Origin: Chrysoperla carnea
Lineage: Eukaryota > Arthropoda > Insecta > Neuroptera > Chrysopidae
Reading direction: 5' to 3'
Assembly (NCBI RefSeq): GCF_905475395.1
Contig: NC_058339.1
Location: 56,119,172-56,183,171, forward strand
DNA length: 64,000 nt
The translations under genes and the position numbers were made by a program. This document shows, piece by piece, positions 4,200-55,600 of this stretch. The notes beneath the pieces are model-generated. The model worked only from the letters and a program-made list of their open reading frames with translations, searched no databases and was not told where the DNA came from. Position 1 is the stretch's first letter; every line of letters starts with the position of its first letter.

Positions 4200-7100
4200 T
4201 TTAATTAAATATGAGTCCCCGAAGTTTCTAAAGGATCCAAATAAGTTTATTCCTTACTTAAGCCTGATAGTTTTTTGGCAAATCGATATTTTAGTCTATA
4301 TCTCCCTTCATTGACTGAACTAAGTGTGTTATCCCAAATTTACTACAAAGTGAAGCGACGTACGGCCCTTTTATATTATGAAATATTTTATATAATAAGA
4401 ATTTAATATATGCTACAAACAATTACTACTCTTTTCTATAAACAAGTTATGAAAACCCAATCAATTATTTTTCCCGATTCAAATTCGATGTATAAAAAAT
4501 TGGACGAGAAGATTCTGTATTTCATAACTTGTTCATAAAAATAAAACCGACAAGTAAGCTTAATTAAATTTTTTTTTTTTGATTATTTTTTTAAACTATT
4601 CCCTCTATTTAATTGTGACATACGATTAGATACTCTGTTATCAATTTTATATTTTTTTTCTTTATACAAGTTGGCAGTACACGCTAGCTCTCACATCTGA
4701 CCGATGCAAGTCGACAAACTTAAATATTTCCCTTACATTATTACAATCAATTAAAACAATATAAAAAGATTATTTTATAAATATTGGTATAATTTTTGTC
4801 CATTATTATTTAAGATTTAAATATTTTTAAATGAATAATTTTGATTAATAATTTTTAATTTGCACATTTCAAATAGGTAACTAGATTTGTTTGTATGTTT
4901 TTTTTTTTATATCTACATTCAAAATTGCTCTAAATAGTTCGTTACATTTAAAAGGAAAGAAATTTAATTTTTGTAAATTTTGTAAACAAATTTTACAATA
5001 TATTTAGTACCTGAATTTTATATACTTTTTTTCTTATATACATTGCACAAATGTTTTTGTGTTTTCTACATTTTTTTTTTTTGTTTGTTTTTATTTGAGG
5101 CACTTTAAATATAATTATTATTTTAATTATAATGAATAATTGTGCCCATAATTTTTTACATCTATAAAAAACTCACAAATAAAAACTAATGGTGTTCTTT
5201 TATTTTGGATCCTAATATTTTTACGTTCAAAAACCAAAAATTCAAAACATAAGGATATGTACTCACGATTTTAAATTGATAATATTTATTTAGTTTGTTC
5301 ATAATTTATTAAAAGGCAAGTTTATATTAATTGGTTAATATTAATAGGTATGCTTTTTCGAATCATTTTAAGACCAGAAAATTTTACATTTAGCTGCTGC
5401 AAACTAAAATTTAATTGATAATTTACGTGTCATATTAATACGAGAATTCGATAGATTAAACATTTGAAAATTTATGCAATTTGATGAAATTTATACTTGA
5501 ACCCAAAACGAAGATAAACATTTTACGTTCGTCGGCTTTAAACGATGGTTAGTAATCGTTTCTTCTTTCAATAGTTGCGACAAAAAATTAGCTCAATCTA
5601 TCAATCATTTTATTTACAGCAGCTGAATTAATTAATACTAATTAGCAGCAGCTGATTCATTTAATAATATTGTGAACTTTTTTGCACCGACTCGCTGTTA
5701 TGCTAGGAAAAGGCTTTAATTTTATCAAAAGCAACAGTCGTAGTCAACACCGAAAAATGAAAGAAATTGGCCGCTTGACCTATTTGTGTTATCGAATCTC
5801 AGATGGGCACTCCCATGATATTCGTTAGGTCGATCAAAGCCATATTACAAAATTTGAAGGCTATGTTGATAAATATCTTAAATAAGTGTTTCAAACACTG
5901 ATTTGAGCTCGCGTATTTTTTAAGGCAACCAAATAAATATTGATGATTTCCCGGATCTTTTGTCAAAGGATTAAATTTTTACGTTCGAACTTTGTGTATA
6001 AAAAGCATACCTGCGTATTATCTATACAAAAAATAATACCAACATATCCAAACCTTCTATTTAAGTAAAGATACTATTGCAAATTCAGTAGTATATTACA
6101 TATAACGTATATTAAATTGGATCTAGAAATTTTGTTACATTTAAATATTGTCATGATAAAATAAAAATTATTTAATAATAAATGGCAAGAAGTAACTTAA
6201 AAATTAAACAACCAAAACCAGTTTTTTTTTTTGTAAATGTATGTTCGAATTATTATTAACTGTAGTTGTCATATTAAAAGTAGAACAGAATTCGAGAATT
6301 ACTTTTGTTAGCAACTAAAATCATAGTAAGAATGGGGTTCTTTTAAAGTGACATTTGTTTTTGTTTTTTTTTTTTACATAAGAGATTTCTTAATATCCTT
6401 GATGAAAATTTATTTTCGTAAAACAAACATAGTACGTATTTATTGGAAAAATTTTGGGATTTGTTTGTTGTTTTTTAAATTACAAAATATAAATTTTTAT
6501 CAAGAATATAGAGAACGACAAATTCAGATTATTTTTATACACTAAATATTTTTAATATATATTAAAAAATTCAAATAAAATATTTGTTCAATTGTATAAG
6601 CTCTGATCATCATGTTACGAGGTTTTCTTTTTAAATTGTTATAATGGCATTATGTTCAGTTTATTTTTTTTAATATTCCCTAACAAAGGCTATTCATTAA
6701 ATCGCAGCTAATTAATTATATGCAAAAGGCCTCGACTGGACACATTAAAATGAACATTTAAATATCAAAAATTACTATGAAAATTTAAATTTTTTTTAAT
6801 GGAAGTTTTTGCCACTTTTCAATAATTAATATATCAAAGAAATTATTTCAATGCTATTTTTTTTTATGAAGTGAAACTTTTTGAGGCACAATATTTGGTT
6901 TAATTTATATCAATTATCAGATTTTGTAAATATATTGTGGCGATTAAAAAGATTGGCAAATTGGCCTATGGAGTCAAGAATTGATCATCGCCATTTTTTT
7001 CTAATTGAAAGCGTAAAACGTTAAGGAACAGGCAAAATAGACGATTGTTATTTGTTTTTTTCCTTTCACTGTAGTATATTTTTATTTATAAATGGATGTT

Positions 7101-10100
7101 ATCTTAAAATACACGCCAAAAATTTGTCAGACATTATTTTAGAAAAAAAATCTTGATCATTGATCAAATTTTGTTGTAGTTTTTCTTGAGGTAGTCCCAT
7201 TTTTCATGTTTGTTCTTAAATGATCTTGTTTATTGTCATGAGATAATTTTTTTTTCATGTCAACTATGTGATGTGTTGAGAATCAATGATCAAGATAAAT
7301 TAAAAATTTGTGCTTAAAAATACAGTTATTGTCAGCATCTCTTAGTGTTTTGTTCTTTACGTTTCATAACATCCTTTTATAAAATAATTTCAATTATATA
7401 ATGTTAATATTATACAAAGCATTTAAAGGCCACTAAAATTTATTATTTATTTTATTTATATATTTTTCATTTTTTTTTTTTTTTTGGTGTGAAACGTACT
7501 TAATTGTTAAATATTGCTATTTTTTGTACGACGAATTAACATCGAAAAATTTTTTTCTTCACTTTTTAGAAACGGATACATTAAATTTTCTTTAATATAT
7601 AAAATATTCGTGTAGTGACTTCAAATGCCTTAAATGTCAGTTTTTTGATGTGATGATACCTAAACGTAAAATACAACTGATTATTTTACACATCACAATT
7701 ACGATCAAAGCGAACCATTTTGATTTCAATAATAAAATGACTTGACAGTCAAATGAAAGCGTTTTAAAACTCGATGTTATAACATGGACCAAACAGTTTA
7801 TACGTTGACATGAGGTTTTACTGTTGGCTCGGATAAAATATTAAGATAGGTCCGTTTAAAGGAAATCATATGGCCGCAAACATCACTCACCATTCATTGA
7901 ATAATTTAAAGAAAATTAATTCGATGAATGATGATTTAAAATTTTCTTATTCATAACATTTCAAACTATTTTTAGCAAATATAATAATTTTTGTAAATAA
8001 CAATATATTTTTATATAAATATATATATTATATATTCAATAAATCATCAAATCAGTCTTTAAATGAATTTAACAATGATCAATATTCTTCCTTATCTAAC
8101 CCCCAATAATCAGTTGTTATTTGTGATTTAGGCATCATACACACTTAATAATTAATTATTTTGAATATGTTGAATATGTTATTTTATCACACTTTCATTT
8201 AAATTTATTACTTGTTTTCGTTTATAACTTTTTAGACCAAATGGTAAACTTTTGAATTTACATTGGCCAAATTTACACAAGTGGATAGCTTTCCTAATTT
8301 AATTAATAAATATAAGTAAAATAGTTCCACTTCGTATTAAATACGTCTTATTAATATTATATCCACATAATAGCCTAGGTAATTTTTACAAATATTAACA
8401 TATTAAACTTATTTAAAGCATTTTAGTAGATTTCTAGTTAAATTGCTTAAATTTTCCAACTATATTATATGGGTAATATTAAACACTATTTTTAATATGA
8501 CTTGAATAATAATCTACTTAAAAACTATTAAACAATGAATTTTATTAATTTTTTTTTTTGTAAATAACATTGATGGATATAATTAGGTGTAATTTAATAT
8601 TTTTTTATACAATAAATAAATATTGGATTAGCATAAAATTTGATCATGTAACATATTGTAATAAAAATCAGTACTTTATTTTTTTTTAAATTTAATTTAA
8701 AGAAAATTTCTTCTCGAAGAAGAATATTTTTAAAATCATATCACAAATTATGTTACATACAGTACACACCTCAAAAAAAATTTTCATGATGAAGAAAATT
8801 TCTTTGATTAAAAAAACTTTTCGTGTGTATATGCTGCACAATTCAATATTGATTTTTTGCTTATATTTTAATTATTTTTAAAATCACAATTTTCCCAAAA
8901 CCAATAAAGTATAATTATTTGTTCTACTTTTTAAACTATTAAATATCCTACGGAAGGCTTTTACTTGCTCCTTGTGATATATTTTAATTAAACATAATTT
9001 TTTTCACTTTTTTGACTTTTTTTTATATATTTTTTTTTTTTTAATTTTTTAATTTTTTTTTATTTTTATTTTAAATTAATAATATACTCTAAATATTGAA
9101 GTAGCTTGAGAAATCTTAAAACAGATAACCAAGAGAAAAATGGCATATATTTTTGTGTTTTGTCTTGAAAACGTCGTTTTTTTAATTAGAGAGACGTGTA
9201 TAACTTTTTTTTGTTTCTTAAATAAATTATTAATTATTATTATTATTACTATTATTATTATTATTAAATTGTTACAAGTTTTTGTTTAAAAATACAATAT
9301 TAATAGAATAGTAAACGTTTAAGTTAGATAATTTTGTATCAATAAGTTTTGGCAGACTTAAAGGTGACTTATGGCATTTACGTGACGGCTAGGTTTATAT
9401 TAAATATTTATTTATTGAATATTTCTCCAAAAACAATTTTGTATTTATTTAAAAAATAATATAAATATTATTTTTTATATTAAATACAAAAAGTAAAATT
9501 TTTAAATTGGTTCAATCATCACGGGGCAAGCCAGCAGTCACAAGATCGCAGACATAACGGTATTTTAAAATATATAATATCCCGTGTATATTTTTTTATT
9601 CCCTAAAAACTAATTTTTTTCAGACCAAATTGATATGGCGCTAGTAAAAAAAAATAGAGTTAACAAAAAAAAAAACAAGGAAAATTCAAGAAAAAAAACA
9701 CTTAAATTCTAAAGTACACACATATTTTTTATATTTTTTTATTTTCAAAAAATATTAATTTTTATTGTAACCTTATTTATTTATTTATTATTTTAAATAT
9801 CTTTTAAAAACAAGTACCCTCATTTTCTATTTTCTATAGTTATATATGAAATTGTATTATCTTATGTTTTATTTATTTTTTTTGTAAGAGATAATATTGA
9901 TTATTTTATAATATTTTTATCATTTGTCAAAGTTTATAATAATCATAATATTATGTCGTATTTACTTAGTCTTCACAGATTGTAGAGATATTAGTTTAAA
10001 TATTATTTTTTGTATTTTTTGATCATTTTTTATTTTTTAAATATTTTTTTTTATTCAATTAATGACTAAAATGATTTTTTATAAAATTAAATAACGAAAA

Positions 10101-21167: not shown

Positions 21168-22119
21168 GTCATTTTTTTAAATTAATATGCTATGAAATGG
21201 AGAAGAGTCTTGAATTGAGCTGCTAATTATCTATAATACAATAAAATGATGATTGGTAGAGATTACATAATTAAATAATACTTAATAAAAATGATTGCGA
21301 TTATAAAATACAATTCGATAATATTTTGTGTTCACAAAACATGAACAAAATTATATAATCAGCTCTTATTTCAGTCTTTATAATTTTTTTTGTTGTATAT
21401 ATAAATCGCCATCATCAATTCATCCGCTATCGTCATTTATCTTATTTCTGTTATGACATGACAATGGAGTGGAGATTTTTAATCTTAAACAAGTCACATT
21501 CAATATACAATATCACCAAATATATAATTTTTTTAAAAAATGGAATACGATGTAGTCCAGAGATTGACTACAAATAATGTATATATGGGATCACTAATAA
21601 AATAATTGGTTTATTTAACATTATTTTTAGTCATTCGTTAACTACAATCGTAGCCTTTTTTTTTTAAATCACAAATAATAAAATTGAAGAAGGCCATTTT
21701 TAAGCAGCCGTCAATACTACTAATTATATGGTCGAGTATTCAGTATATTTTTTTTTTGGACTATTTTATTGTCCGTCTTTTTTTACAGGTAAATACTTGC
21801 AATTGTTTTTGTTTTTATAAATATATAGATAATACAAAAAAAAAGTTTAAAAATATTTGTATTAATTAATTAAATATATATTATTAGGATCGATTTTAAT
21901 AATATTAATTAAAATATTTTGCATAAATATTAGAATTTGTATAATTATACAAAAATTAATGCATTATCATGATTTTTTTATGTTTTTACAAGCTGGTCCC
22001 TAAAAGCTTTCAATCGAAAAATTCCTCTATTCATACACAATTTTTCGATATAAAAACTTTTACAACATTTTTAAACTTTTTTTTCCATCACTATTTACAG
22101 GATTGTTAATTTATAATTG
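21168..22119 (-). other. Region just downstream of the GW182 stop; 3' UTR expected here
   Basis: The GW182 3' UTR must begin at 22119 and run leftwards. Many AATAAA-like hexamers occur by chance, so I cannot place the cleavage site or the UTR length. Confidence 0.4.
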
Positions 22120-25100
22120 TTACATGGACTCACCACCCAACAAATCTCCTGGTAGGTATGAATTTAGACTTGATGGTGTGGCTCGTTGAGTATCGCTGTC
22201 CATGGTGGATGGAGGTGCCCCCCATAAACTAGCTGTTGGGGTTGGATTTGGTGGCCAACATGCGTTACCCCATGTATCGGTGCCAGCATTTAGATTGGCA
22301 CCGGGAGCACCTTTTGTTCCACCACCACCACCACGCCATCCAGCACCACTAGATCCACTTTGTTGTGCTAAATTTTGCATTAATGTGTTGACATCGCTGT
22401 CGCCGGGAGATTCGGCAAGAATTGTTGTGTTACCCAATACACAATTGTTTAATGCAGTTTGCGCCTATAATTACATGGAAATTTTATAATTAGTAGAATA
22501 TATTAGCAGCGGATATAAACGAGCTTTTAAGAAAATTTTACTCTCATATTTAGTGTTTGGAACTCATTTATCATCATAAATTGGATCCGTTGTTTTAATC
22601 ATTGGAAGTCTTTAAAACATTTACCCAAATTGTCTTTACTTATTTCTAAAGTCGTACTATACCAAAAAAAGTGAAGGTAGCTTTGAAAATCATAGAAAAC
22701 ATAAAAAGAAATTTATGGAAATTTAAAATATTCTTAGCAATGGACTACTTAGGTGATTCTATGACCCCTGTACCAAAATTTGGATACTACCTTAAATATA
22801 TTTTTAACAAATAGATCTTCAATAGGTCATTTTATGAACCCTTGTATCAAAATATTTGTTACAACCTAAAATATTTTTAAACAAATCTTACAAACTTTAA
22901 ACTTTATTCTAATATACAGTTAGAGTCTCGATAATCACAAATGTCTGGTAATAGGAATATTTTCGTCCACCAGAACTTTCCATACAGCTCTCTATATACA
23001 TCTAATATTCATTGCTATGATTCTAAAATAGCATCACAATAAGACGTTTTTTATGCAGTGTGTACAGTCTAGCTTAAATACATACATTCCAATACTGTTT
23101 TTTCAATGCTTTATTTTATTTATAATGAATTTTTCCATTCAATCTCAATAATCGAAACTTCCCCAGTTTTCATGGAGGCCCGATTATCGACACTCTATTG
23201 TATTTCATTTATAAGCAGGGTATAAAAATGATGCGTTACCTTGATAGCTTCTTCCCGAGATGAATATTTTGCAAGTGCAAATCCATGATTAGAATAAAGA
23301 TGGAAGCTTTGTAAAGGTCCATGCTGTTTGCATAATGTTTGTAGTGTAGAGCCGTCAATCTGTTGAGAAAATAATAATTGTTAGAAAATTAATTTAAATA
23401 ATTTTTAAAATTATTTAGTTGTGGTTTATTTACAGTACTCTCATAAAATATAAACGTTTGAAACTCATTTATTATCATCAATTGGATCCGTTTTTTTTAA
23501 TCATAGAAATTTCTTGTCGGGGGGTCAAAATTTAAAAGTATAAGAGCATATTTTCTTAATTAAATATGATTTGATGTTAAATGATTTATTATTCAATTTT
23601 AGAACCGCTATTTCTGAAGCATCAATCTAAGCTAGGCCAGTCTAAAATGTACCAAATAACTTAATAACTAAAAGGGAAAATATATAAAATTTTTATGTTC
23701 CAGTGTAAGTTATATAAAAACAAGAAAAATAAAATACCTGTGCAGTAAGATTTCTTAAAAGAAGCCATGAAGATCCCCAATTTGCAGAGCCCCAAGCGCC
23801 CGAGGCGGCTGATCGAGCACCACCAATTCCACTCCAACCATTTGTGGTAGCATTTGATCCACCAATTCCACCTTTAACAAGGCCAGGTGGTGGACCACGT
23901 TTTCCCATTGCTGGTGCACCCCATAATTCGTTTGCATTGGCCGTTGGCTGAGGTGTAATATCACCCCAAGTACCCTTTGTAGCTCCAATTTTATTTAAAG
24001 GACTAAAAAGAAGAAATTATTTAATTTCATTTTGATAACTACAGAAGCGTAATAAAAAATTACATACCTGGTAAATGAAGTAGTTGAGATTGGGTTGAAA
24101 CTCCATGTAGAAGAAGAGATGCTTAATGGTTCAACAGGAGGCGATGCTTTTGATGGAACGGTAGATGGAGGTTGAGCACTGAATATTTCAGTATCCTTGA
24201 TTGTAGCCAATGATAATGGTGAACGTACAACGCTTCCCGGAGTAATGGTTGGATCATCTTCAATACTCTTCATCTGATTGCCCTGAATAATGTCCAGTAA
24301 ACGATTAAAGAATTTTAGGATGAACTTACATTTAAAGAGAACACAAATTGACCACCTAGCATGCTTGACCATGCCAAAAGCTGTAATACATACACCTGTT
24401 AAAAATATTCGATAACCAACGGTTCCCATAAGAACAACATTGTTCATAATCTTAATCGAACACTATTTCTTTTTATAAATGAAGCCCATATATAAATACA
24501 AATTGTGGACAGTTTTTATACATTTTACAAAACGCATGCCACAATTAAAAAATAAATATAAAATTTTTTTTGGTCCTGTGTTTCACTTTTCAAGTTTACC
24601 ATCTGTTTACGTTATAGCATACCTTCCATGGTTTTCCAGGTTCAAATTCTGGAACTACATCTAAGAATGTAGCAGGTGATGCTTGAGCCGAAGGCCATGC
24701 ATCTTTTCCAGCACCGTCAGGACCATCAGTTCCTGAATCAGGCCATCCACCAGTATCATTTGAGCGACCAGTAGACCACGGTCTACAAAATAATATCAAA
24801 TTAAAATATCTCTCAAATTTTAATCAATTTATTAGAATTTATTAAATAATTTTATCTCATAATCAATGTTTGGAATTCATTTCTTATCATAAATTGGATC
24901 CGTTGTTTTAATCATAGAAAATTATTAAGATTAAACTTGTTTTTTGTTATTTAGCTACGGAACTATAAAAATAAAAAGCAACGAACAAGTGTAACTAGGT
25001 TCCTTTCTAACATAAGAAAAAAAAATTAGTAATAAAAATATAAAAGTAAAATTATTTTACCCATCACTTTGACCAAGACCAAGATTCATTGATGGTGACG

Positions 25101-28100
25101 AATGAGCTACTGGCGGTTTTGCAATAGAGCCTGGTGCACGACTAAATTCACCAGTGGTATCTTCTTTTTCAGGTTTAATCCATTGTTGTAATCGTGATTG
25201 GGATGATTGGGCGTATGAAGTCTAAAAAATATGATTAGTGATTCAAATTTGCATTTGTTAATTTAAACAGTGATGGCGTTTACGCATACAATATTAATTC
25301 TTAACATCCTAAACAAATTCGAAGGATTATAAAGAAAATATATTTAACCAAGACATACAACGTGATAAAAAAAATCGCTCTAAACTATGAATAATAACTA
25401 ATTTTACTTGTAAATAAGACAATTTAATGTGAATGTTGAAAATTTCGGACTACGGACTAATTTTAATCCAGAGTTCGTTGTTTGTTCCAAAATTTATCAA
25501 ACAAAAACAGTATATCTTAGCCATATTTCGAATCTATATCAATATGACACACTGTTCAGTGATTAAGTCGGGTAAAAATTTCTCAAATTATATTTCCTGC
25601 ATATGTTATACATTGAAAAAAAATTTAAAACGCAATTTAGCAAGATCAGGTAAATAAATAATGTAAAAGAATTAATTATTTACATGTTAACTCAATAATC
25701 CGTAAAGAATTGGCGTATTAAATACGTGGCACATCACTGATTGTTATAATTTTTTGTAAATCAATGTTTTTTTACCGGTGGTTCTTTGTTTAATGACAAA
25801 TCAGAGAAATTTCCTTGTAAAGCTGATATTGGATCATGCATGTTGGTCTTGAAGAAATCTTGACCAGCTCCACCACCGCCTCCTCCCATTTGTTTTACAT
25901 ACAATGCTTGATTGGCAGCAATTTGATTCTGAAACGAATTTTATTTTAATTTTGCTATCGATTACTTGAAGTCTTAACAAATTAATTGATGAAATAAATT
26001 ATTTAAAAATCAGACATCCAAGGAAGTTAAAAAATCATCAGTATCAACGAAAATTTGTATGGTTATCATCACTTAAAGTGTTGTTTTTAAAGTTGCGGTT
26101 TTTGTTAAAAGTGTTATTTTTGAGTGTATCCTAAATAAATAGAAAATGATGTACACACATTTTATCTATCTCAAAAAATATATAATTACCTGTAAATTAG
26201 TAATTTGTTGTTTTGTTTTAGTGATATTAACGGTAACTTGCAGTATTGCTTGAGAATTGGGTTTTCCTAATGAACTTTGTGATTGAAAGACGCTATGTTG
26301 ATTCATCAATGATTGTAACAATTTAATATGTTGCAATAATTGATTTAATAAAATTAATGTTTGTGGAGCTAATGGTTGATTTAGAATCTGCAAAAATAAA
26401 AATACCAATTTCAATCATATGTTAAATAAATATATTAAAACATATTTTTTTATATTTAAAATCAGACATCCAAGGAAGTTAAAAAATCATCAGTATCAAT
26501 GAAAAATTTATATGATTATCATCATTTAAAATGAAATTTTTTAAAGTTAAAATAATTATATTGACCCGCAAATGGATCGGAATTCTAATTTTAGTGTAAC
26601 TCACATTAATTGTTCGAAGATTTCTTCAAACATCAATTTGGGCCAACTCCCATAATTTTGATTCACGTTTACTTCGAAATAAAAGGATTTGAATTTTTTG
26701 TTCTTAAATCTTATCACTATATCAATACAAAACAAAATCATGGCAACAAAAAAAGGAATAAAGCATGGTTAGTTACTTTACCTTCAACTTGAAAACGTTA
26801 ACTTTTGTTTAACAGTCTGCCTTGCGCTAGTCCAGATTTGTATTCTTTATTTATCTATATTTATCTAGTTGCAGATTAATTGTATTATTTATCATTAGTA
26901 TAAAATTACAAATGGCGATCAGATTCAATTTCCGAATTAAAAAACAATCATTAAATCGTTATTTTTCGAAGTAAAGGTGAAAATGTCGGATGAGACAAAA
27001 AATGTTCTTTGAACCAATATCAACATTTGATGTGAATTGTTAGGATCAATGTACCAATCCATCTTCGGTCTAAATACCAGTCTTTTATATTTTAATAACA
27101 GAAAATTAATATCATGATTTATTACCTGGTGATTTAAATAACCAGCTTGAACAGCCATTTGAATTTGTTGTACAAGCATACGTAATTGTTGAGTACTTGG
27201 TTGAGATTGTGCTGGTGGTGGTTGTGATCGTGCTTGTGAACCTGTTGCACCATAACCAGGTATATTAGTAACCGCTGCAGATCCAGCATTTGCACCTCCA
27301 CTTGCTTGTAATATTTTCTGGACAACTGCAGGAGACATGTTATTAATGGATGGTATTGATGGATTTCCACCACTTCCACTCATATTGTTGATTAAATTAG
27401 GTGCATTTCCACCCTTAAAAAATGAAAACAAATTAATTAAATTATCAATTTTGAATTATTTATATATTTAACGTAATTCAAATATTTAAAAAAAGATCAG
27501 ACATCCAAGGAAGTTAAAAAATCATCAGTATCAACGAAAATTTAAATGGTTATCATCATTCAAAAGTATAATTTTAAATTTTTTCTAAATTTTAAACAAA
27601 AATAGACAAAGAACGAGATCTCTTTTGAAATTAACAAATTTGAATAATAAGAGGAAAATAGTTTTATACTTACAGGAGGAAATTGTATTTGACCTGGCCC
27701 GCCAGGCCCAAATCGTTGTCCATAAGGCCCTGCATTAGCATGGTCATATCCATGTTCATCATGTCGTCCTCCAACTGCACTGGCTGATCCACCAGTACTG
27801 TTACGCCAGGTATCAACAGACGGACGTAATGGACTTAAAATATCTAGTGCATCATCTAAGTTCATATCTCTTAAGCGTAATGCATTTTCTGCATCTTCTT
27901 TTTTGTAACCCATTTCTACAAGATGACGGAATTGTTTACTATTCCATACATGTTCTTTGGTAAGTTTTGGTCCTGGTTTATTCCAATCGATTTCTGAATC
28001 CCATGCAACAGGTGGAGCTTTTGGTTTTGTATTCCATGCTTCTTCACTCCAATGTTGTTGTGCATCATCACCCCATGAACCGTTACGACCCCACAGTGAC

Positions 28101-31100
28101 CCGTCGGTTGGTGGTTTACGATTACTGCCAACCATTCCTGGTGGACAAGCATTTCCACCACGGTTACCCATTGGTCCTCCTGAAGGTAAGTCTGTCCAAT
28201 GAGATAGTTTGCCTGAGGCTGTGAAAAATGTTTTTGTGCGGATGTTAATGCAAGCAATGAGGTGGTTAATCTTAATAAGGTTTTATTGAGATATAAAATT
28301 TTTTAACTTCTTTTTATTAAAAATGTAAAATTACTGATTTGTAAAGCTCACGATACACTAAAATTAGATAAGGTTATAGCCAAAAATTCATTTTGATAAC
28401 GTAAAGAAGGGATCGTTTCGCAATGGGACTTTACTCCTCGTACCATTTGAATCTATTCGAGAAAGCAATTCTTTATGATTAAAATGCGCAAGATCTGTCT
28501 ACCGTTTTGATTTTACGATAAAATGTGAAAAGATGAAATTATATAATGTTAAATCTCAATAAATATTTTTAAAAAGGTGGGGGAATGATTAATGAAAAGC
28601 GTAAGCAGTGGCTGTGCAATGAAATATTTACCAGGCATACGATTTGGTTGTTGAGTTGGGTTTCCCCACAACGATGTTCCATCATCAAAGTTTGGCATTG
28701 TTCGTCTCTGAGATGGAGGTGATGGTTCTTCCCAACCAGATTGTTTATTAGTCATCCCTATTTCTTTGGGTGGCGGTCCTGACCATTGATTTACACCTAA
28801 AAAATTAAAACGGTTTAAAGTAACTATCATAAATAAATTCGTTAAAATCCTTGTTATTAAATTGTTATCAGACATCCAAGGAAGTGAAATTAATCAGCGT
28901 CATTCATTTTAGGCAGAAATTTTATCATCATTAAGAATGGAATACATAAGTACTTATAACACGTAGAAAATCAATTAAGACTTTTTCTTTTTTCTAAGTG
29001 ATAAAGTAGGTATTCTAAAAAAGTAATAGTTTGGTCTAGTATCTGATATATCTATTGTTAACATACCATTTGGTGCAGGTCCAACCATTTTTCCAGGAGG
29101 TTGATGATGGCTCATTTGATGAGGAGGATGTGGAGGCGCTCCCCACATACCTTCACCGTTCAAACGACCAGAAATGCCACGTGGATCTCCACGCATATCT
29201 GGAATACCACGTAAATCACGAGGATCACGCATGCCATCTCTCATTGGATCACCGCCAATCATTCTCATAGATTCTCTTGGATCAGCAGCACCAGTTCCAG
29301 AATTTCGGGGATCTATTGATGTTGGTCGCATTGCTGCTTCACGTGGATCCATAGCTGCAGCACGTGGATCAGCTCTAGGATCACCCCATCCAGAGTTATT
29401 ACCGGTACCATTATTTCCCCAATCATTTTCCTTTTTAGGGCCACCCCACATGGCATTACTATTATTTTGCCCTTGAGCACCCCATTGTTGTGGATTATTC
29501 GGAACACCAGTCCATACATTTGAGGAATCGCTAACATCATCTTCTTCACCCCATGTTCCTCCTATATTTGTGGTTGGTGTATGACCCCATGGCGTTTTTT
29601 GTACTGGTTGTGCTGGAGGTTGGCCACCATTACGTAAATTAGCTTCCCATAGTTCTGTACCATTATTTACAGGTGGTTTCCAAATAGGTGCACCACCTGG
29701 TCCCTCTTTTTGACCAGGTTCTGGAGATGATGGTATATCCCAGTTTGTATCTTGATTAACGTGTTGCTAAAATAAAACAAATTTGATCAAAAACAGGTAT
29801 TTTAATGAATTAAACGATCGAAAATAGTTGTGCAAAATTTTTCAGATAAATTTTTTAATCAGAATAATCTGAGTTCATAAGGATCCATTGGTACATGAAA
29901 AAGATCATCATATAGACAAGATTGTGGCTAAAAATATCTGGATATGGCCATTGAGCTAATATGTATTGATATAAATACTCAAAGCGGGCACGAACGGAAT
30001 ATAGCCGAATTTCTAGCTTATGATCCCTTATTTAACTAGTATATATCACTTGACAGTGTCTTCAGGCCCGTGGAGAAACGACATTCAAATAAATGTATGT
30101 GAAATATGATTAAAATACAAATTTTTTAATAAATACTTACACCACCCCAACCATCTTGACTAAACAACGCTTCACGCATAGAATTCAATTGTTCCAATTG
30201 TTGTTTAGTTGAAGTTGTAGTTGGAGCTACTGTATTTGTCGGATTTGATGGACCTGTAGGATTTGGTCCGGCATTAGTAGAGGTTTTATTTGCATTATTT
30301 TGATTCCATCCTTGATTACCAGCCGTGTTAGATGTCGGTGGTTGATTTGGATTCGCATTTTGTGATGGATTTGCGTTTGAATTTCCGGTTTTGTTTGTAT
30401 TTGATGCTAAAAAATATTTTATTGTTAAAAATCTAAGAATATCTAAAAATGATTTTATGAATCTTTATAATTTATCAGATAAGAATTTTAATCAGAAAAA
30501 TCTGAGTTCATAAGGATCCATTGGTAAATGTAAAAGATCATCATTTAATAGTATGGCTAAAATATTAATTAAATTGGGCGAATATTTTTGTTGTTATCGG
30601 GTACAAGATTTTTTTCTGTTAAAACGATAAAATATTTTCGACTTTTCGAGTATCCTTTATAAGCGAGATTTTTCTACCAAAAATATAAAAATATTTAAAT
30701 ATTAACTTATAGAGGAAATAAGGCATTTGAACTAGGAATCGATTTCGCCTTTACTATATTCTTATGGAAGTCGGTGGAAAATATTTGCCTGTTCTTAACA
30801 ATATCATATTCGTACAAACTAAAGTTCGATTTTCGTCCATAAAGTGGGCCAAAAGTATCTTATTACCGGACACCATTTTTTTTATTTATTTAACATTTAA
30901 AAAAACTATTGGATTGTATACATTGGGCGATTTTTTTGATCGTTAACATTTTTTAACTAGCCTCATCGTTTTTATAGGAAATATCTTTTAGTTAATCTCT
31001 GTGCTTGAGAGTGTATTTTCCAAAAATGTGTTCGCAAATCAAATTTTTATTTTGAATTTTTTTAACCGTCGTAAATTTTTGAAAAAAATTATAAATGAGA

Positions 31101-34100
31101 TACATCAAAAATGTTTGTAAGAAAGAATTTAAGATATGAAAGCAATATTTTCATTTACTTACAGTCTTGTGAATTAGGTGGACCTTGTCCTGGTCCAGTG
31201 GTATTATTACGAGTTGAATTGTTATTCCAATTATTTTGATTATTTGGATTTTGTGCAGCAGGAGTACTTCCCCAACCAGTTGAATTATTTGCATTATTAT
31301 TATTTGAATTAGTTGCTGGTGGTGTACCCCAACCGGATGTACCTGTATTCAATGAACTTTCTCCACCACCACATAAACGTAATCGTCTTCCATTTCCATG
31401 TAAGCGTATCCATTGTTTCTCCCTGGTTTGTGCTTCATTCTGTTGCTCAATCAATTGACTAAACGTATAATATTGGTCATGGTGACGGTGTTTAGCAGCT
31501 TTGAATGAAGCCACAACATTGGTATTGGTATTTTTAATTAAATTATTGTTTATTGCATTGTTAATACTCATTGTAGTATTTATGGTATGCTTAGTCGTCA
31601 TGTAGATAAAATCGTTGTGGTTCTCGCAAGTATTGCTCTGTATATCGTTGGAAGTAATGGTGTGTTGTTGATGTATCCCTGATTTACTCTCAGACTCAGC
31701 GAAATTCGAAGCGTATTCATCAATCTCAAACAGTTTTTTTGTATTGTTTTTAAAGCTACATTTGGGTGGGTAGTAATTACTGTACTTGTTACCCTGGACA
31801 ATTGGCAATAATAATACGACGGGAATGTCTATATCAGGAATATATAGTTGATTTGCTTTATATTGATCATCATCATTCGGGAACAGGTTTAAAGCACCAT
31901 TATTATTAACGTTTTTAACATTAACTAATTCTAACAACTTAACACTATTATAAGAATTATTGTTTGGCTGTGTGACGACGTTGTCTATTCCTGTGCTAGT
32001 TACGTCGACTTCAGCCGCTTCTACAATTATATTACGTTGTGGTTCAGTAGTATTTGGTTCGGTAACAGCAGTTTCGCTCGAGAAATTATTTTTATTACCC
32101 TTATATTTATTTACCGCTAAACTACAATTAACGTTCACAGATTGCATCTTATTATTAGACTTAAGAATAGAGCTGCCGCCGAAAAGGATAACAGGATTTA
32201 TAGGAATATCAGAAAAGGATTGTTGATTTGATTTGGATGAAGTCACAGAGAACGAATATACTGAAACAAATGAAGAGGTGGCAGTGATGCTAAAAATGGG
32301 ATTTAATAGTGTTTTAAAGGTAGTCAAGGGTGTGAGAGATGACATACTGTCAATTTGGTTTGAGGTTAATAGTGGACGGGCGGAGGCGGGGCAACTTGAG
32401 CTGGGTATCACAGACAGGGGCTGTAGGGCCACAAGGGGGCCAGCTCGATCCCCCCGGGGGTCCACGGGGCACATTGGCCCACGTTGATATTGATAGAAGG
32501 TTGCTTGAGTACAGTCATCACAGGTGATTACACATCCTGTGCTATTAACTTGTGCTTGTACTGTGGGTGCGCTCTGAGGCAGGCAGGCGGCGCCACGGAA
32601 ATCAGTCGGAGCTGCCATTCTTGTTAAAACGATTGTGTCCTAAAATCGTTTTAAAAATTATTATTAGTTTTAATTAGAAAATAAACTCACACATTGAAAG
32701 TAGCAATGAATTACACCCTTACCCTCGGAACAGGCTGAGGCACTTGATCGGTAGGAAATGTGGAACAATGTTGTGCTTTCACACGTACTACATCCTCCTG
32801 AAATTTTAAATTAAAATTGTTTCAAACAATTTTCAACAAAAATACATGTACATAAATATACATTTGCATACAAACAACTAACTATATAATCTTTGGAACG
32901 ATATTTTCATAAAAAAAAAGTAGAACTTTTACCGTAAAAAAAAATATTTAACCCACAAAAATTTTTTTATAAAATTATCGACCTGATTTGAAATTTAGTG
33001 GAAATTTTAAAATTATCTCTATAGTCAAAGAATACTACAACTTGAGCAGAGATACTACAAGTTTAATTTTTGTACAAATAAATAGTAACACATTTATTAT
33101 CATTTTCCTGGAGGAGAGATTCTCTACCACCTTAGATACAACCTTGAACTATGTTATTCTCAAATTTGAAAACATATTTAAAAATTTGGCCCTAATTTTT
33201 TTTTAATAACGAAATTTGAAACAAATAAGTTTATAAAAGATGTATAAATGATATCTAATATTTTAGCGATTTGTGTATCATGACATTGGTATTTGATGAA
33301 TTGTGAATCGACCTCTATTAGTCCTTTCCATTTTAATTATGGTTCTTTTTATACCATGTATATATGAAATATACATAGTATATTAAGTTTAGTCCCAAGT
33401 TTGTAACGCTTAAAATATTGATGCTACGAAAAAAATTTTGGTATAGGTGTTCATAGAATCATCTAATTAGTCCATTTCCGGTTGTCTGTCCGTCCGTCCG
33501 TCTGTCTGTCAACACGATAACTCAAAAACCATCTTGTAAACCGTTAGAGATTGAACAAAAGTTTAAATATAAAAAATATTCCTTATAAAAAAATAAAGAA
33601 CATTTGTTTGAAAGGTTTTTTTTTAAACATCACTGTTTACCTGTTTAAATTTTATAGTATGTATTAATATAGGAATATCAGTTATGTGTGTGTGGCTATT
33701 TAAAAGTGGATATCTTTTGTTATTTACGTGACGTTAAAAAACAGACGATTGCGTCATCAACACTGTCTATACATGGTATTTCAACAATTAACTCAGTCAA
33801 TTGTTTGTTTTCACTTGTTTATTTTACACTGAATTACGAAAATAAGAGATATTAGTAATTTGTTAGGCAAATTAGTAGTTTAATAGTCTTCCCGAAACAA
33901 AAACTTAAATTTTAATTAAAGACGACACGGTCTATACTGACCATAAAACAGAAATATTTTCTAAAACTTTCGAAAATGTATTATTTGCTTAAGTGGTCCT
34001 AGAAGACAGTTGATTTCCGAGATTCTACATCGATTTTCAACATCGATAATACGGTAGAGCCTCGATAACAAAAAAAATTCTACAAATTACAATATGTGTT

Positions 34101-48640: not shown

Positions 48641-49695
48641 CCCTATACGCAAATATTTTATATTTGATGAGCTGTTTCCTGAATTTTTTTTGTATTTATG
48701 GAAGCACGCTTAATATAATTAATTTTTTTAAAAATGCAGTTGTTTATAAGGAAATTTTGTTCCAAAAATACACAAAGAATTCATTTTACAATTGGATGGG
48801 TATTTCTGAATTACTGCCCAAAATCTCATAACAAATAGCGATTTTTTGATGGATTTCAGACTATTTCTTAGAAAATATTTATCTTATAGTGAAATGATTT
48901 GGATTTGTGTTACTTTTGGGCTCTAATTATTCTAAAAAATAAAAAGACCGAGGCCAACTTTTTTACGATTTTTTAAGTTAACCGATTCTTTAAATAACAA
49001 AAACATAACTAAGTAATTGATATTTAATTAACTCTGTACGTTGAACTTCAGTGTATATTCTCCGTATAAATAAAAAATATCAGATATTAAGATAGCCGCT
49101 TGCTTACTTCTTGTAATCAATGAGATCTTTCTAAAATGAAATTTTGATTTGGAAAACATTAATCTGAACCATTCTGTAACTAGTATGCAAGGCACAATGG
49201 AAGTTGTGAGGGCAAATTTAAAAGAAATAATAAATATAATTCAGCTACAAATTAAAAAAAAATTCAAATAAATTAGTTTTTTTTTTGGTAAAATGTAAAT
49301 ATAATATTAAATTAAAAATTATTAATGTCTATCATTCATGAAAACATTTTAAATTACGTACATTTTAAAAATAATTTTCATGAAACAAAGTACCATTTAT
49401 TTACATTACGTGGCAGCACCTATTTGAAATAAAAATAAATTGATGAGCGTATATGGCTTTCATATTATTTTCCACAGAATGTAAGTGTTTAGGCTACAAT
49501 GTTGTCAAATATATAAATATAAATGAATAAATTCTTAATAAATAAATAAATAGTGAATATTTGTGCTGTAAATAGAAATGTTCAAATAATATTTAATTAA
49601 GTTATAAACGTAAGCATTCATTAGCAAATAATATCAATTACATTATAAATGAACATTTCAAAGATACATAAGAGATTAATTTTGTAGAATTCAAC

Positions 49696-52600
49696 ATGGA
49701 TAATAAATATTGTCGTATTCAGGAAGTAAATTCACCAACTGTATATCCAAAATTTCCACAAATGCCGAAAAGACAATCATTAATTGTATCTCATCATACA
49801 TATGAAAAATATGAAAATAATGAACAAGCAAATGTTAATTATAAAACAAGCGCCTTCAAGAATTTTACACCATCTCGAAAGGTATTTTATACACCAGAAA
49901 TTGATTTTAACCTTTCTGATTCTGAATATGGTAGCTTAAAGAATGAAAAAAGTTTTAATCATTCGAAAACGTCGATTGTCCGAAAAATATGTGATTCAAC
50001 AACAGATATACCATCAATAAAACATTTAAAAGAAGTTTCACCCGAACCAAAAATTTCAACAACGTGTCAAACATTTAAAAATGTAATACAAAATAATAAT
50101 TGTGAATCATCATCAGATTATACACCAAATTATATGCAAGAAAATCGTTCAATACCATTTAAGAAACGATACATTATGAAATTACAGGAAACAGATAACT
50201 TGATCATTAAAAAACCACCTATTTTAAACGTGTCAAACAATAGAAATAGTTCACATACAGGTTTAAGTTACACATCATCCAGCTCGTCCATATCACAAGC
50301 AAATGATAAAACACAATACGAAGATCTTTCTGAATCAATAACAAAAGTGAAATCATGGAATGCTGATTTTGAGACTGCATATAATAATGAGTATGAAGCA
50401 AACGAATTTAATGATGAATTAATTGAGAAAATTCATGAAGATAAACTTCACTATGAAAATAATTTATTACGAAAAAATAATAAATCGAATTACTCAAAAT
50501 TATCGAATTTTGATAAAACTCGAATTATTCATAATGGTTTTAGCATGCGAATTAATGAACAAGGTTTAAAAACGATCAATATTCATTCCGGAAAAATGTC
50601 GATCGATAATCAAGGTTGTAATTATCAATCAATTACATGTCATGGTACAACTAAACACCACAATCTTGAATCACCACCAATTCAAGCAAAAAAACTAAAG
50701 TCTAATAATTTTAGTTTAGCAACCAGTTATTCGGGAAAAAGTTCATCGAATATGAAACGATATCGTAAGAAAATTAAATTCGCTGATACACCACTTAGTC
50801 CGGAAACAACGAAACGTAATGAATTTTATTCATATCTTCAATTAAACGTGAAACCACAGTTTCGAAGTGATGGAACACCTTTAGAACCCAGTCGACGTTC
50901 AGTTCGTGTTAAAAATATTGAAATCAATAAAGAACGAGATCGATCGATATCAGAAGAGATTAAACCAGAGAAATCAAATCCACCAGAAATATGTGTTAAA
51001 AAACAAGAAATCAAAAAATTATTTGTCAAACCAAAGTTATCGAAGCTAACGAAAAATAATAATACAAAAAATGTAAAAACAAAATTGTTACGAAATGATT
51101 TAAAAAAGAAATCGAAATATTCGTCAATTATACAAACACGTCGTTCATTGAAAAACAGTATTAATTTACGATCAAATCGAAAAATTGTCAATTTGATTAA
51201 TAAACAAACAAAGAAAAAATCTGATAAAATTATTGATAAAGTAAAAAGTAAAATTGAAGAGAATGGATTTAATGAAATTGGATTTTCTGTTGTTGATAAA
51301 GAAACATCGTTAAAATCTGAATCGATGTTGTTGTTAGCTAAAAATGAAATTGATAAATCATTAGAACAATTTAATAATTTAAGAGCGTTAATTTGTAAGA
51401 ATGATGTCGATGATAATAAAAATAAAGTGGAGAAAAAACTTGAGAAAAAAATATTAGTTAAGAAAAAATCACGAGATGAATCAGATACTGTATTAAATCA
51501 TATTAATGGACCAGTTACACGACATTCATTTGCGGTAATCCATAAAACACTAACACGTGGATCACATACAAAACTACCAAAATTAAATTTGGACGCTGTT
51601 ATGAAACGAATGTACAACAAGCATAAACCTAGTAAAATAATCGTACCGAAAGTACGATCAAAATCGTGTTCATTAGCTCAAAATACCGAGATAATAACAA
51701 ATATTGAATCAAGATTAGAGAATATTAGCATACGTCGTGAAAATGTTAGTAATTTATTAAATGCTGTGAATAATGAAGTTCTTAAAGTACAAAATAATAT
51801 ATTAGAATTATCATCGCAAAATTCATGTTACGAGGATGATTTTAGCGAATGTAGTAAAGTTTCTGAACATAGTTTTCGTGGTTTTGGAACACCGCTAAAT
51901 GGTGGCACATCATCGAGTGGAACAACTTCTGTATCATATTCCGAAGTGAGTTCATCACACAATGATAAATGTGGGATTCGATCACAGAGACGATATTCAT
52001 TACCAACATATATCAGTAATGAACGAGAATTAAAATTAAATGATTTAATTTCACCTGATTTACCAATTAAATCATCCCCTATTTGTACAAATGATAATAA
52101 TTTAGTGTGCCATCATAATTCAGTAGAAGACTTACTTAATAGTTCCATGCAAATAGAAGAATCATCACCGAAATTCATACCATTATCACCGCATCCAGTT
52201 CGTCCATTTCATCAAATTTTTAATAAACGAATACAAAAGCAACAAACGAATAATGCACCTTGTATATTTGGCAGTGAAACAAATGTTTTATATTCAAATT
52301 TTTTCTCGGAAGAATGGAATATGGTTAATAATTCGAGTAATAATTATTCAGAATATATACCAATTTTACGGCAAACAATACAAGATAAACTGAATATTAA
52401 ACAAAATAAAATATTAATGCCACATATCAATAAATCGGAACAGCATGTTGTGGATATTTCAAATGATGGGGGACAAGTATTAAGTGTTCATTTTTTAAAT
52501 AGTACGCTTATGATTGTACAGGATAAATGTATAAGTTTTTGGCAACAAACGCCATTGGGTTATATGCTTGGTGCTCAAAATATGTGGTTATCATTGGGTA

Positions 52601-55600
52601 AAATTCAACGATTAAATTTTGAAGTTGGTTATGTAAATATTCGTTGTGTATCACAGAGTTGTTTAAGTTCAGATAATGCAACAGCATTTATTGAATTATG
52701 GGCAAAGGAGCATAAATCGGAACGTAGAGAGCGACCGATTACGGATGTGTTTGCGGTTGTTTATTTTCATCAACAAACGAAAAAAGGAAATATTTTAGAT
52801 AAGAAAGTTATACAACTTGAAAATACTAAAAGGTATATAACAACTTTAGTACTTTTTTTAAGTCTAATAACTTCAGCTTTGAAAGAATGTATTACATTGT
52901 GAAGTTTCAATTAAAGAGAGCGTGAATCTCTCCTCTTATTATGTAGTTTAGACCAGGACTTAATTTGAGGCAGGGCGTTACGAAAAGGCATTCCGGCACT
53001 TTTCTATTATAGTATGGCTAGAGATTTTTTATTGTACTTGTTTGGTAAATCCAAATTATTCTACGGCACCTCAATCGTGCATTAGTTTTAGGGATACCAA
53101 CTCGTCAGTTTTGGACCGGATTCTCCGGTTTTCAAACCATTTCATCGGTCTCCGGTTTTCGAAACAATCTCCGGTTTTTTGGTCCTTTTCACAACAATAT
53201 TTTGTATGATTTTCTAAAAACGTTAATTATATTTATTTTTTATAATACAGTAGAATCTCGATAATTCGAATTTCAAGGGAAATTTAAAAAATTTTGAGTT
53301 AACCTAGTTTTCGTCTTAAGGAAAACATCCCTTTTAGATTTTATTGCTATGAGTTCGGGAAATTCCAAATAATAATATATCTTTTTCATTCATATATATT
53401 TTATTAAATTCGACTTACGAAGTTTTTTTTTTTTTAAATTAGAGTTATCAAGTACAAATATGCACTATAGATACTTCCTAGAGAAACAATATTTTGCTCG
53501 AGTTACAGGGGGCGTCGCAGATCAATGCACTAAGGGGGGAGCAAGATTAGAGATACAGAATACGATTTATAAGGGGGCGGGAATAATGAGACTCCCTGGT
53601 TACTAAAAAAGACAAAAAGTTATTATTATTTCCGCTTGTTTTGATTTTTTGAGCAACAAATAAATAACTAAATCACTGCAAGACTAATGAGGTATTTTTA
53701 AAATTCTTAGACGAGGTTCAGATTTGCTAGCTCCTATATTACATAGGGGGATATAAAAGTTAGATAATGATGTTAAACAGTCTTGAGTAGAGCCTACACT
53801 TAACCAGTTTCTATCAACACATTTATAAATACGAAAAATCAGTTTTTGTTCAATCGAATTTATAAATTTATTGGGTTTTAATTAAATTGCACTCGGGATA
53901 CCTTATGGCCCATCATGAATTAATTTTGTCACATAACACTTGTCATAATAACACTTGATATAAAAATCTGAATCCTAGTTATCCTCGATAAGATCCCATG
54001 TTCATAAAATGAACCCCATGTAACTTATGATTTTGGCATCAATTATTTTTAATGTGTAAAATTTATTCTATTACAGTTTTGCTCAAGATGTGCAATTTGT
54101 ATGTTTAAAGTATGGACGTAGTATCATTATTAGTTGGAGAGATCAATTCGCAAGTCCTCCAAAATCACAAATTCGTCGGTATCAGTTAGCAGTTGATTTT
54201 CAAACTATATCAAATGTCATGGAAATGGAGTCAGTGGAACATTATGTTAGTGAATTACATGATGTCAATGGTAAGTTTTATACCTATTTTTTAAAGAATT
54301 TTTAAAAAAATATTCCATACTTGAATAGAAAATTTCATAATTTATTTTTTAAAAGAAAGTTCAATCCAAAATTATAGTACAAAATGGGAAAATTTATACA
54401 TATTTTATATCATTACATTACTATTGATCTATTTATTACTAGGGAACAAAGGAACTTAAGTTTCTATATTGTAGATAGACGACAAATTCTTGACGTTTGT
54501 TTAATACTTGAACTCCTAGACTTCTTGCATTAGTATATGTCGATAAGACGATGTTGTATATATGACTAATAACTAGCGGCCTGAATGATATTCAGTCGTA
54601 TTGTCTAATACAACATTTAATAAAATGGCTGGCTGATGTTTAGGCCATTTATACAATAATAATGTGACCATTTGACAAAAAAAGATTAAATATCTGACAT
54701 TGAAGTTTATTTAACTGTTGTCGTAACTGTTTGTTTGAATGGCTGAATATAATAGTGCCGTTTAGTAAAAAGGTTACCCTGTGAATTATATATATATGAA
54801 TTGCGCTATCTTTTTTAGAAGTCTGATTTATTCAATTACTTCTTGTATTTTTAAAATATCATTGGTTACATTTTTTTAAATCTTGATTATCTAGACTGCT
54901 CTTTAGAATAAGGTGGTCAGCGGTATTTTGAAGACATAAGAAGTTCTTGAACCTCTTTACCATCGATAATTGAGTGTACAGCAACCACCTAACTTACGTA
55001 TATAAAGTAACTTCTCGTTTATTCGAAGTAATGTGTGGAGCAGGTACCTCGGATAAGAAAAGTAATACACGCGTACAGCAAAGCGTCTTTATCCGAATTT
55101 TCCGTACACCTCAATTAATATTGAGTGCTCAGATAAACCCGTTGACTCGAGGTTTTACTGTATACTAATACAAGAAGTCTACCGCACTATTAACAGTTAA
55201 CAGTTTTAGTTATGGTAAATTACGAGAAAATTCGTTTTTTGTTATTCCAAATAAATATTTTATTTAAAATTTTACGTTTTCTCTGTTGTATTTTTTAGAG
55301 TGCTTTGAAATGATTTTGGGAATTGGCGATCATCAAGTATCTATTTGGCATTTACTTCAAGGAAAATTAGTTACTACGGTGACTATACATAATCCTTTGC
55401 CTATTCATGAACAAATTAATGGTAATCAATATTACGATATTAATTGTGTTTGGGCGTTATGTGATCGCGTAAGTATTTATTTGAAGTATTTTATTTCTAT
55501 TTAATTTTAAGTTAAATCATTATTTTGAAAATCTTGATTGTCCAAGGTGTCGTAAAATCGTTTCCCCTTCCAGAAGAATGTGTATTTTTCGTATCAAGTT

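Follow-up and report, generated by a model that had tools for sequence, protein, structure and literature searches.

Does the gene on the minus strand of this lacewing locus carry a set of box C/D snoRNA genes in its introns, and which nucleotides of the rRNA would such RNAs be aimed at? The original prediction, made from the 64,000-nt stretch of DNA analysed here (the window), was that gawky/GW182 hosts nine such elements. All nine blocks were confirmed: six form two families of 18S guide genes (A and B), whereas the other three (family C) have non-canonical boxes and their target was not found. Taken as a whole, we consider it very probable that gawky is an intronic multi-snoRNA host with A and B as 18S guides and C as probable diverged C/D RNAs, in a genome where the functions of U14 are divided.

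The host gene and its intronic blocks

The minus-strand gene is gawky/GW182. Its 14 exons join into a reading frame with one stop, at the end (22120), and GT...AG borders are present in all 13 introns. The protein combines the features of the GW182/TNRC6 family, with Pfam matches to UBA, M_domain (6.7e-38), RRM_1 and TNRC6-PABC_bdg, the PABC-binding region, and a PDB match to 2wbr_A 'GW182' (6.3e-36). All 16 named proteins among its best 18 protein matches are beetle Gawky proteins (identity 53-59%). A search of viral contigs with the Tribolium protein gave no match to gawky.

Table 1. The gawky/GW182 coding region and the nine intronic blocks, with positions in the window and the distance from the D end to the 3' splice site
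Feature	Positions	Strand	Intron	Distance to 3' splice site (nt)	Remarks
gawky/GW182 coding region as joined	22120..32604	(-)			14 exons, 13 GT-AG introns, single frame
C1 C/D-like block	22544..22602	(-)	13 (22465-23239)	79	
C2 C/D-like block	23441..23504	(-)	12 (23360-23737)	81	
C3 C/D-like block	24857..24915	(-)	9 (24783-25060)	74	C ATGATTA, D ATGA
A1 box C/D guide gene	26010..26072	(-)	7 (25929-26189)	81	guide CTTCCTTGGATGT flush with CTGA
A2 box C/D guide gene	26462..26525	(-)	6 (26388-27125)	74	
A3 box C/D guide gene	27497..27559	(-)	5 (27414-27673)	83	
A4 box C/D guide gene	28868..28931	(-)	3 (28797-29066)	71	most diverged A copy
B1 box C/D guide gene	29842..29911	(-)	2 (29767-30140)	75	guide as B2
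B2 box C/D guide gene	30475..30544	(-)	1 (30407-31162)	68 (outer D end)	guide CCAATGGATCCTT

A scan of the 13 introns bore out nine blocks, each in an intron of its own and in sense orientation. They belong to three families (A, n = 4; B, n = 2; C, n = 3) and occur one per intron; no element was found in the other 4 introns. Along the gene the families are grouped, with B in introns 1-2, A in introns 3, 5, 6 and 7, and C in introns 9, 12 and 13. From the start of the C box to the end of the D box the nine blocks measure 59-70 nt. Intron-encoded box C/D snoRNAs typically lie some 70-80 nt before the 3' splice site, and the equal placement claimed originally stands, although the range of 71-92 nt given for it does not: with the outer CTGA taken as the D box of family B and ATGA as that of family C, all nine blocks lie at 68-83 nt, the earlier range arising because the inner CTGA of family B yields 85 and 92.

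Canonical C and D boxes together with 18S matches had been proposed for six elements, and all six A and B copies have them. Pairs of RTGATGA and CTGA spaced 40-130 nt apart occur in 6 of the 13 introns on the sense strand and in none on the antisense strand; among 2000 first-order Markov resamplings, 1658 gave no intron with such a pair, 319 gave one, 23 gave two, and none gave more than two. Block identity within families is 77-95%, and that of the 60-nt flanks 52-68%, compared with a mean of 59%, a 95th percentile of 65% and a maximum of 68% in a background of 300 unrelated pairs of intron 60-mers. Slight similarity of the flanks is possible, since 5 of 20 flank comparisons exceed this 95th percentile. 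The closing stem beside the C and D boxes is weak, with 2-3 flush pairs in A, 1 in B and 0-1 in C; the corresponding numbers for two U14 genes in RpS2 (described below) are 3 and 0.

Further C...D pairs were sought throughout the window, giving 2 on the plus strand and 13 on the minus strand. Of the minus-strand pairs, six are the A and B elements, 2 fall within a gawky exon and 5 lie at other places. Among the 9 pairs outside A and B, 7 were examined for an rRNA guide flush with CTGA, and none has one; family B is also negative in this test because its guide adjoins ATGA. A comparison with Rfam gave no match in the window at the gathering threshold, a level that the RpS2 U14 genes likewise do not reach. 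At E values up to 10, 13 weak matches were obtained in 22000-34000, all below the gathering score; 12 of them overlap A or B elements in sense orientation and represent C/D families, and none lies over C.

Predicted guides of families A and B

A table in PMC3511168 assigns Cm414/Cm462 to U14 and Am541/Am590 to snR41/U62a. The C at position 414 and the A at position 541 of two yeast-like 18S records are those of the motifs with which A and B pair, and the numbering of a third is shifted by a few bases. Both A and B show at least 10 nt of rRNA complementarity directly upstream of D or D', with the fifth nucleotide at a published methylated site. This sequence anatomy supports the presence in gawky of six convincing box C/D guide genes with 18S rRNA as their target.

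The family A guide (TTCCTTGGATGTCTGA) forms 13 of 13 pairs with positions 431-443 of the lacewing's own 18S rRNA in all four copies, flush with CTGA. The N+5 nucleotide is C435, the counterpart of yeast C414 and human C462, which is the site of U14 domain B. The longest runs common to the four copies are the C box and the guide plus D box. Even A4, which is 77-80% identical to the other A copies, keeps C box, guide and D box: TGATGATAA is intact in it, as are an uninterrupted stretch of 19 bases spanning guide and D box and a shorter internal run, TGATT. The name U14, originally given to this family, was not retained, because domain A is absent and its sequence word is confined to introns of RpS2; pairing with 18S 82-95, in the 5' domain addressed by domain A, is poor in all A copies. 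Family A thus resembles U14/SNORD14 (RF00016) in its domain-B guide and in the 18S nucleotide addressed, and differs from it in the missing domain A, the C to D length of 63-64 nt, and the presence of four copies in gawky. The C. elegans RNA ceN33 (RF01866) aligns to A1 at 26.7 bits (gathering score 75 bits). The similarity concerns its 3' half, with AACUUCCUUGGA.GUCUGA, while ceN33 is a longer RNA of which only positions 55-113 of 118 are matched.

In B2, the boxes are ATGATGA (C), ATGA (D'), CTGATTA (C'-like) and CTGA (D). Both B copies form 12 Watson-Crick pairs and 1 G-U pair with positions 559-571 of the own 18S rRNA, flush with ATGA, which as a D' box is weaker than CTGA. The N+5 nucleotide is A563, that of yeast A541 (snR41) and human A590 (U62); a target was found for one of the two possible B guides. 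The name SNORD93, originally attached to this family, was given up, since the N+5 nucleotide coincides with the snR41/U62 site; SNORD93 is aimed at human A576. Covariance models of snR41 and SNORD62 gave no match to family B in 22000-34000 at E values up to 10. Family B is predicted by the N+5 rule to aim at the same nucleotide as snR41/U62 (SNORD62; 18S Am541/Am590), but it lacks an Rfam match to these RNAs and uses ATGA as its D' box; the likeness concerns the target site.

Copies in the genome and the U14 genes of RpS2

In an exact search for guide plus box, gawky is the sole detected genomic source of the A and B guides. Across the 559 Mb, the A guide plus D-box word is found without mismatch 4 times, each time in gawky, and its reversed control never; with one mismatch allowed there are 4 further matches versus 4 control matches, and a C box lies within 90 nt of none of the 4. 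The B guide plus D' word has 2 exact copies, both in gawky, although it is not rare in itself, as its reversed control occurs 5 times. The 17-mer CTTCCTTGGATGTCTGA was also encountered in seven viral contigs; these occurrences, with a C box in 0 of 7, were put down to chance.

The domain A word of U14 occurs twice in the genome (control, 0), in introns 1 and 2 of RpS2, both times without domain B. The D ends of these two U14 genes lie 75 and 72 nt from the 3' splice site, akin to the gawky blocks. Their scores against RF00016 are 25.4 and 21.4 bits, below the gathering score of 64 bits. A genome search with RF00016 (117 of 8311 candidates scored) gave 3 matches with E values of 1.7-7.3, a score that alone proves nothing because 9 of 14 prokaryote control genomes matched too; one match was accepted on its location in RpS2 and its domain A, and a further candidate was dropped because by eye it lacks a U14 domain. 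For Drosophila, Yuan et al. 2003, as cited in PMC6315972, reported a U14 without domain B and predicted that the U14 methylation site is served by an unrelated RNA of the box C/D type. The split of U14 is not new, since this source reports it for the fly. The same division of labour is seen here, and family A is likely the functional counterpart of the fly's separate RNA, a correspondence of function that implies neither homology nor residence in the fly's gawky.

Nature of the blocks and gawky as a probable host

We infer the following course of transcription, processing, RNP assembly and methylation for the gawky elements. Splicing and debranching of gawky pre-mRNA would release introns that contain box C/D RNAs some 70-80 nt ahead of the 3' splice site; the C/D core proteins would bind these RNAs, and trimming would leave products of roughly 65-75 nt. 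The D-box guide of family A would then direct 2'-O-methylation of 18S C435, and the D'-box guide of family B that of A563; family C is probably a diverged C/D RNA family. Local duplication would have spread the copies to neighbouring introns. Of the U14 functions, domain A, the pre-rRNA chaperone, stays with the two genes in RpS2 introns, and the domain-B guide lies in the gawky RNAs.

The clustering of related copies as three families within a single gene, and their local order along it, are also what might be left by an intronic repeat or transposon that spread in gawky without RNA function. We regard this as barely credible: all nine blocks lie on the sense strand at the narrow spacing given above, the longest runs in the four A copies coincide with C box and guide plus D box, and the N+5 rule places the A and B guides on two methylation sites known from the literature. 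Moreover, when whole elements of A, B or C were used in a genome blast, the matches listed were gawky copies only (at least 3, at least 2 and at least 3, respectively). A role for the elements in gawky itself, such as modulating the splicing of its own introns with rRNA methylation as a secondary matter, would suit the way in which each host intron holds a single element close to its 3' splice site, and intronic snoRNAs have been suggested to influence the splicing of their hosts (in a reference cited by PMC12309372). It is nevertheless very improbable, given that complementarity to rRNA sites is exact for the A guides and almost so for the B guides, that the RpS2 U14 genes have the same spacing, and that no element was found in 4 of the 13 gawky introns.

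It is a good deal more plausible, if still not the reading we favour, that A and B are real guide snoRNAs while C consists of decaying former snoRNAs or of a different conserved element of introns, such as one acting in splicing. All three C copies have AUGAUUA and AUGA at their ends in place of RUGAUGA and CUGA, and an Rfam match over C is absent even at E values up to 10. No guide beside the D-like box was found in the own 18S rRNA, 5.8S rRNA, the readable 5' third of 28S rRNA or a yeast-like rDNA record, the best pairings being short or misplaced. Several candidates were discarded. A site at rDNA 4436-4448 (28S) forms 11-13 pairs with C1 and C3, two of them G-U, but lies ~11 nt off the ATGA box and is absent there in C2; a pairing of C1 and C3 over 10 nt, with two G-U, to an animal-like 18S record is at a place where the own 18S differs; and an 8-nt match to U6 in the first C guide was judged to be chance. 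Against this reading stand the conservation of the blocks (C1 and C3 are 90% identical and C2 is 81% identical to both, with flanks at 52-65%), the retention of ATGATTA, GGATCCAATT and ATGA in all three copies, and a distance from D end to 3' splice site within the band of A and B. We keep to C as a probable family of diverged C/D RNAs.

Intronic snoRNA hosts decide when guides get made. The supply of these two 18S methylation guides would be tied to GW182 transcription because the guides were found in gawky alone. A stronger proposal, that gawky is the only genomic source of the two 18S guides, with guide supply inseparable from GW182 transcription, and that selection has kept this coupling of silencing to ribosome modification, appears unlikely. 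Protein-coding multi-snoRNA hosts are known in Drosophila, namely Sf3b3, with 6 C/D and 3 H/ACA snoRNAs (PMC12309372), and lola, Arpc2 and dom (PMC13228274). Like these, gawky is a protein-coding gene of non-ribosomal function with multiple snoRNAs in its introns; it differs in that the host is GW182 and the nine elements belong to only three families, grouped along the gene. As far as the literature seen goes, gawky as a host, and as the sole detected source of two guides, is new.

The lacewing represents a second insect case of divided U14 functions, in which the methylation half is traced to specific host introns. In the lacewing lineage, gawky null alleles or loss of gawky transcription could lower 18S methylation independently of silencing, and RNAi directed at the mature gawky mRNA should leave 18S methylation unlowered. 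Should gawky prove to be a host in other insects as well, the phenotypes of gawky mutants may merit a second look.

Identity of the host gene

The searched genome comprises 559 Mb in 337 contigs, and the window, with a G+C content of 19-38% in 2-kb steps, sits in contig C3 (94 Mb). On its minus strand, 14 joined exons gave one open frame with a stop at 22120 and 13 GT-AG introns; the gene model covers the joined coding exons to this stop, without the gene's 5' end. Because the C-terminal part carries a UBA, an M domain, a PABC-binding region and an RRM (Pfam) and matches PDB chain 2wbr_A, named GW182, the host is identified from its predicted protein as gawky/GW182. The named proteins among the best 18 of 248 matches to the C-terminal 818 residues, 16 in number, were from beetles (53-59% identity, 89-100% query cover); among the matches listed (120 of 248) were also two more beetles (51% and 48% identity), Homalodisca (50%) and two sand flies (46-47%), and none of those listed is named as a lacewing. 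Elsewhere in the window, a 1076-aa open frame (49672-52902, plus strand) had no Pfam match at E 0.01.

Intron elements and their duplication

As originally predicted, nine elements were found in nine different gawky introns, with none found in introns 4, 8, 10 and 11, and six carry canonical C and D boxes: RTGATGA followed by CTGA at 40-130 nt occurred in 6/13 introns in sense and 0/13 in antisense orientation, and in at most 2/13 in every one of 2000 Markov resamplings. The predicted proximity to the 3' splice site also held for all nine, although the end of the D or D-like box lies 68-83 nt upstream rather than the claimed 71-92 nt; in two U14-like genes of RpS2, used as an internal control, it lies 75 and 72 nt upstream. 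Closing stems are weak, with 2-3 (A), 1 (B) and 0-1 (C) flush pairs, and 3 and 0 in the RpS2 genes.

Intron elements of gawky and U14-like genes of RpS2 (gawky coordinates in the window; RpS2 coordinates in record L022, the gene region G000:C4:33600000-33609500)
Element	Host intron	Strand	Coordinates	Type
B2	gawky 1	sense (-)		family B
B1	gawky 2	sense (-)		family B
A4	gawky 3	sense (-)		family A
A3	gawky 5	sense (-)		family A
A2	gawky 6	sense (-)		family A
A1	gawky 7	sense (-)		family A
C3	gawky 9	sense (-)	24857-24915	family C
C2	gawky 12	sense (-)	23441-23504	family C
C1	gawky 13	sense (-)	22544-22602	family C
U14-like	RpS2 1		4490-4571	domain A, without domain B
U14-like	RpS2 2		4918-5004	domain A, without domain B

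In transcript order, families B, A and C each form one unbroken block. Since this is improbable under random order (6/1260, ~0.005, computed post hoc with the order already seen), the copies likely arose through local duplication into adjoining introns. Elements are 77-95% identical within families and 61-67%, near background, in five between-family pairs; their flanks are 52-68% identical, close to the mean of 59% for unrelated intron pairs, although 5/20 flank comparisons exceed the 95th percentile of such pairs (65%). The four A copies share TGATGATAA, the C box, and ACTTCCTTGGATGTCTGAT, which joins guide and D box, as their longest invariant runs, a pattern that would be expected under guide-RNA selection; a short internal TGATT is also shared.

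The A guide word TTCCTTGGATGTCTGA has four exact genome copies, all in gawky (reversed control 0). One mismatch added four sites, compared to four control sites, and none of these four has a C box within 90 nt. Both genome copies of the B guide word CCAATGGATCCTNNTGA are in gawky; the word is not rare in itself, since its reversed control gives five sites. Whole-element blast returned gawky copies only, at least three (A), two (B) and three (C), the A count omitting the fourth, diverged copy.

Predicted 18S targets and the division of U14

The lacewing's own 18S was located by similarity and then read (Rfam SSU_rRNA_eukarya, 1753.7 bits). At 2155 nt in rDNA record L043 (G000:C52), it is long for an insect, with A+T-rich stretches seen by eye at ~740-850 and ~1560-1700; adjoining 18S copies are mostly 10.1 to 13.9 kb apart, and part of the unit reads N.

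The predicted match of six elements to conserved 18S was confirmed. CTTCCTTGGATGT, flush with CTGA in 4/4 A copies, pairs 13/13 with 18S 431-443, its 5th nt upstream of D facing C435; CCAATGGATCCTT, flush with ATGA in 2/2 B copies, forms 12 pairs and one G-U with 559-571, its 5th nt upstream of the ATGA box facing A563. Two yeast-like 18S records number these nucleotides 414 and 541, the numbering being shifted in a third; a table in PMC3511168 assigns Cm414/Cm462 to U14 and Am541/Am590 to snR41/U62a. The spacer preceding the outer CTGA of family B differs between the two copies, and the rRNA scan found no flush match for it. For family C, no acceptable target was found in yeast-like rDNA or in the readable part of the own rDNA (18S, 5.8S and the initial third of the 28S gene, beyond which the sequence is N). 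C1-C3 (minus strand) contain conserved GGATCCAATT and GAGTTCCAAAC-like stretches close to their ATGA boxes.

A SNORD14 genome search gave three weak matches, the best at 25.4 bits (E 1.68), a score that prokaryote controls also reach. The best lies in an intron whose next exon encodes 40S ribosomal protein S2 (Pfam Ribosomal_S5, 3.1e-28; PDB S2, 7e-48), and a second U14-like copy lies in the following RpS2 intron. By eye, dense ACCGT/ACGGT words occur downstream of RpS2 (L022 ~8540-8830). Domain A of the two genes forms 12 pairs and two G-U, and 13 and one G-U, with 18S 82-95. In neither gene does the 13-nt stretch ahead of CTGA match the domain-B site, with 6/13 pairs in one and 6/13 and one G-U in the other. 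The suggested U14 link thus stands in part: the A elements hold the domain-B guide, but the domain A word TTTCGNGGTTTCCACC has genome copies only at the two RpS2 sites (control 0). This split is already known, since a passage in PMC6315972, citing Yuan et al. 2003, describes fly U14 without domain B and an unrelated C/D snoRNA predicted for its site; the addition is the placement of the second half in four gawky introns.

Gawky as a probable snoRNA host

Protein-coding multi-snoRNA hosts already known include Sf3b3 (PMC12309372) and lola, Arpc2 and dom (PMC13228274), and gawky is probably another. A literature search, mostly of titles and abstract openings and with the main fly snoRNA lists outside its scope, found no report of gawky/GW182/CG31992 as a snoRNA host; in passages of PMC11612316, the sole 'snoRNA' is U6, a reference RNA. 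A passage of PMC3511168 names broad expression as the main requirement for a host, which would suffice as an ordinary explanation of gawky's role.

By the established animal pathway for intronic C/D snoRNAs, gawky pre-mRNA would be spliced and its introns debranched, C/D proteins would assemble on the elements, an exonuclease would trim the introns to snoRNAs, and fibrillarin would catalyse the methylation that these guide. Further sources of A and B guides could hide as diverged guides or in unread or gap sequence. If these guides are made only in gawky, its transcription would be tied to the supply for two 18S marks.
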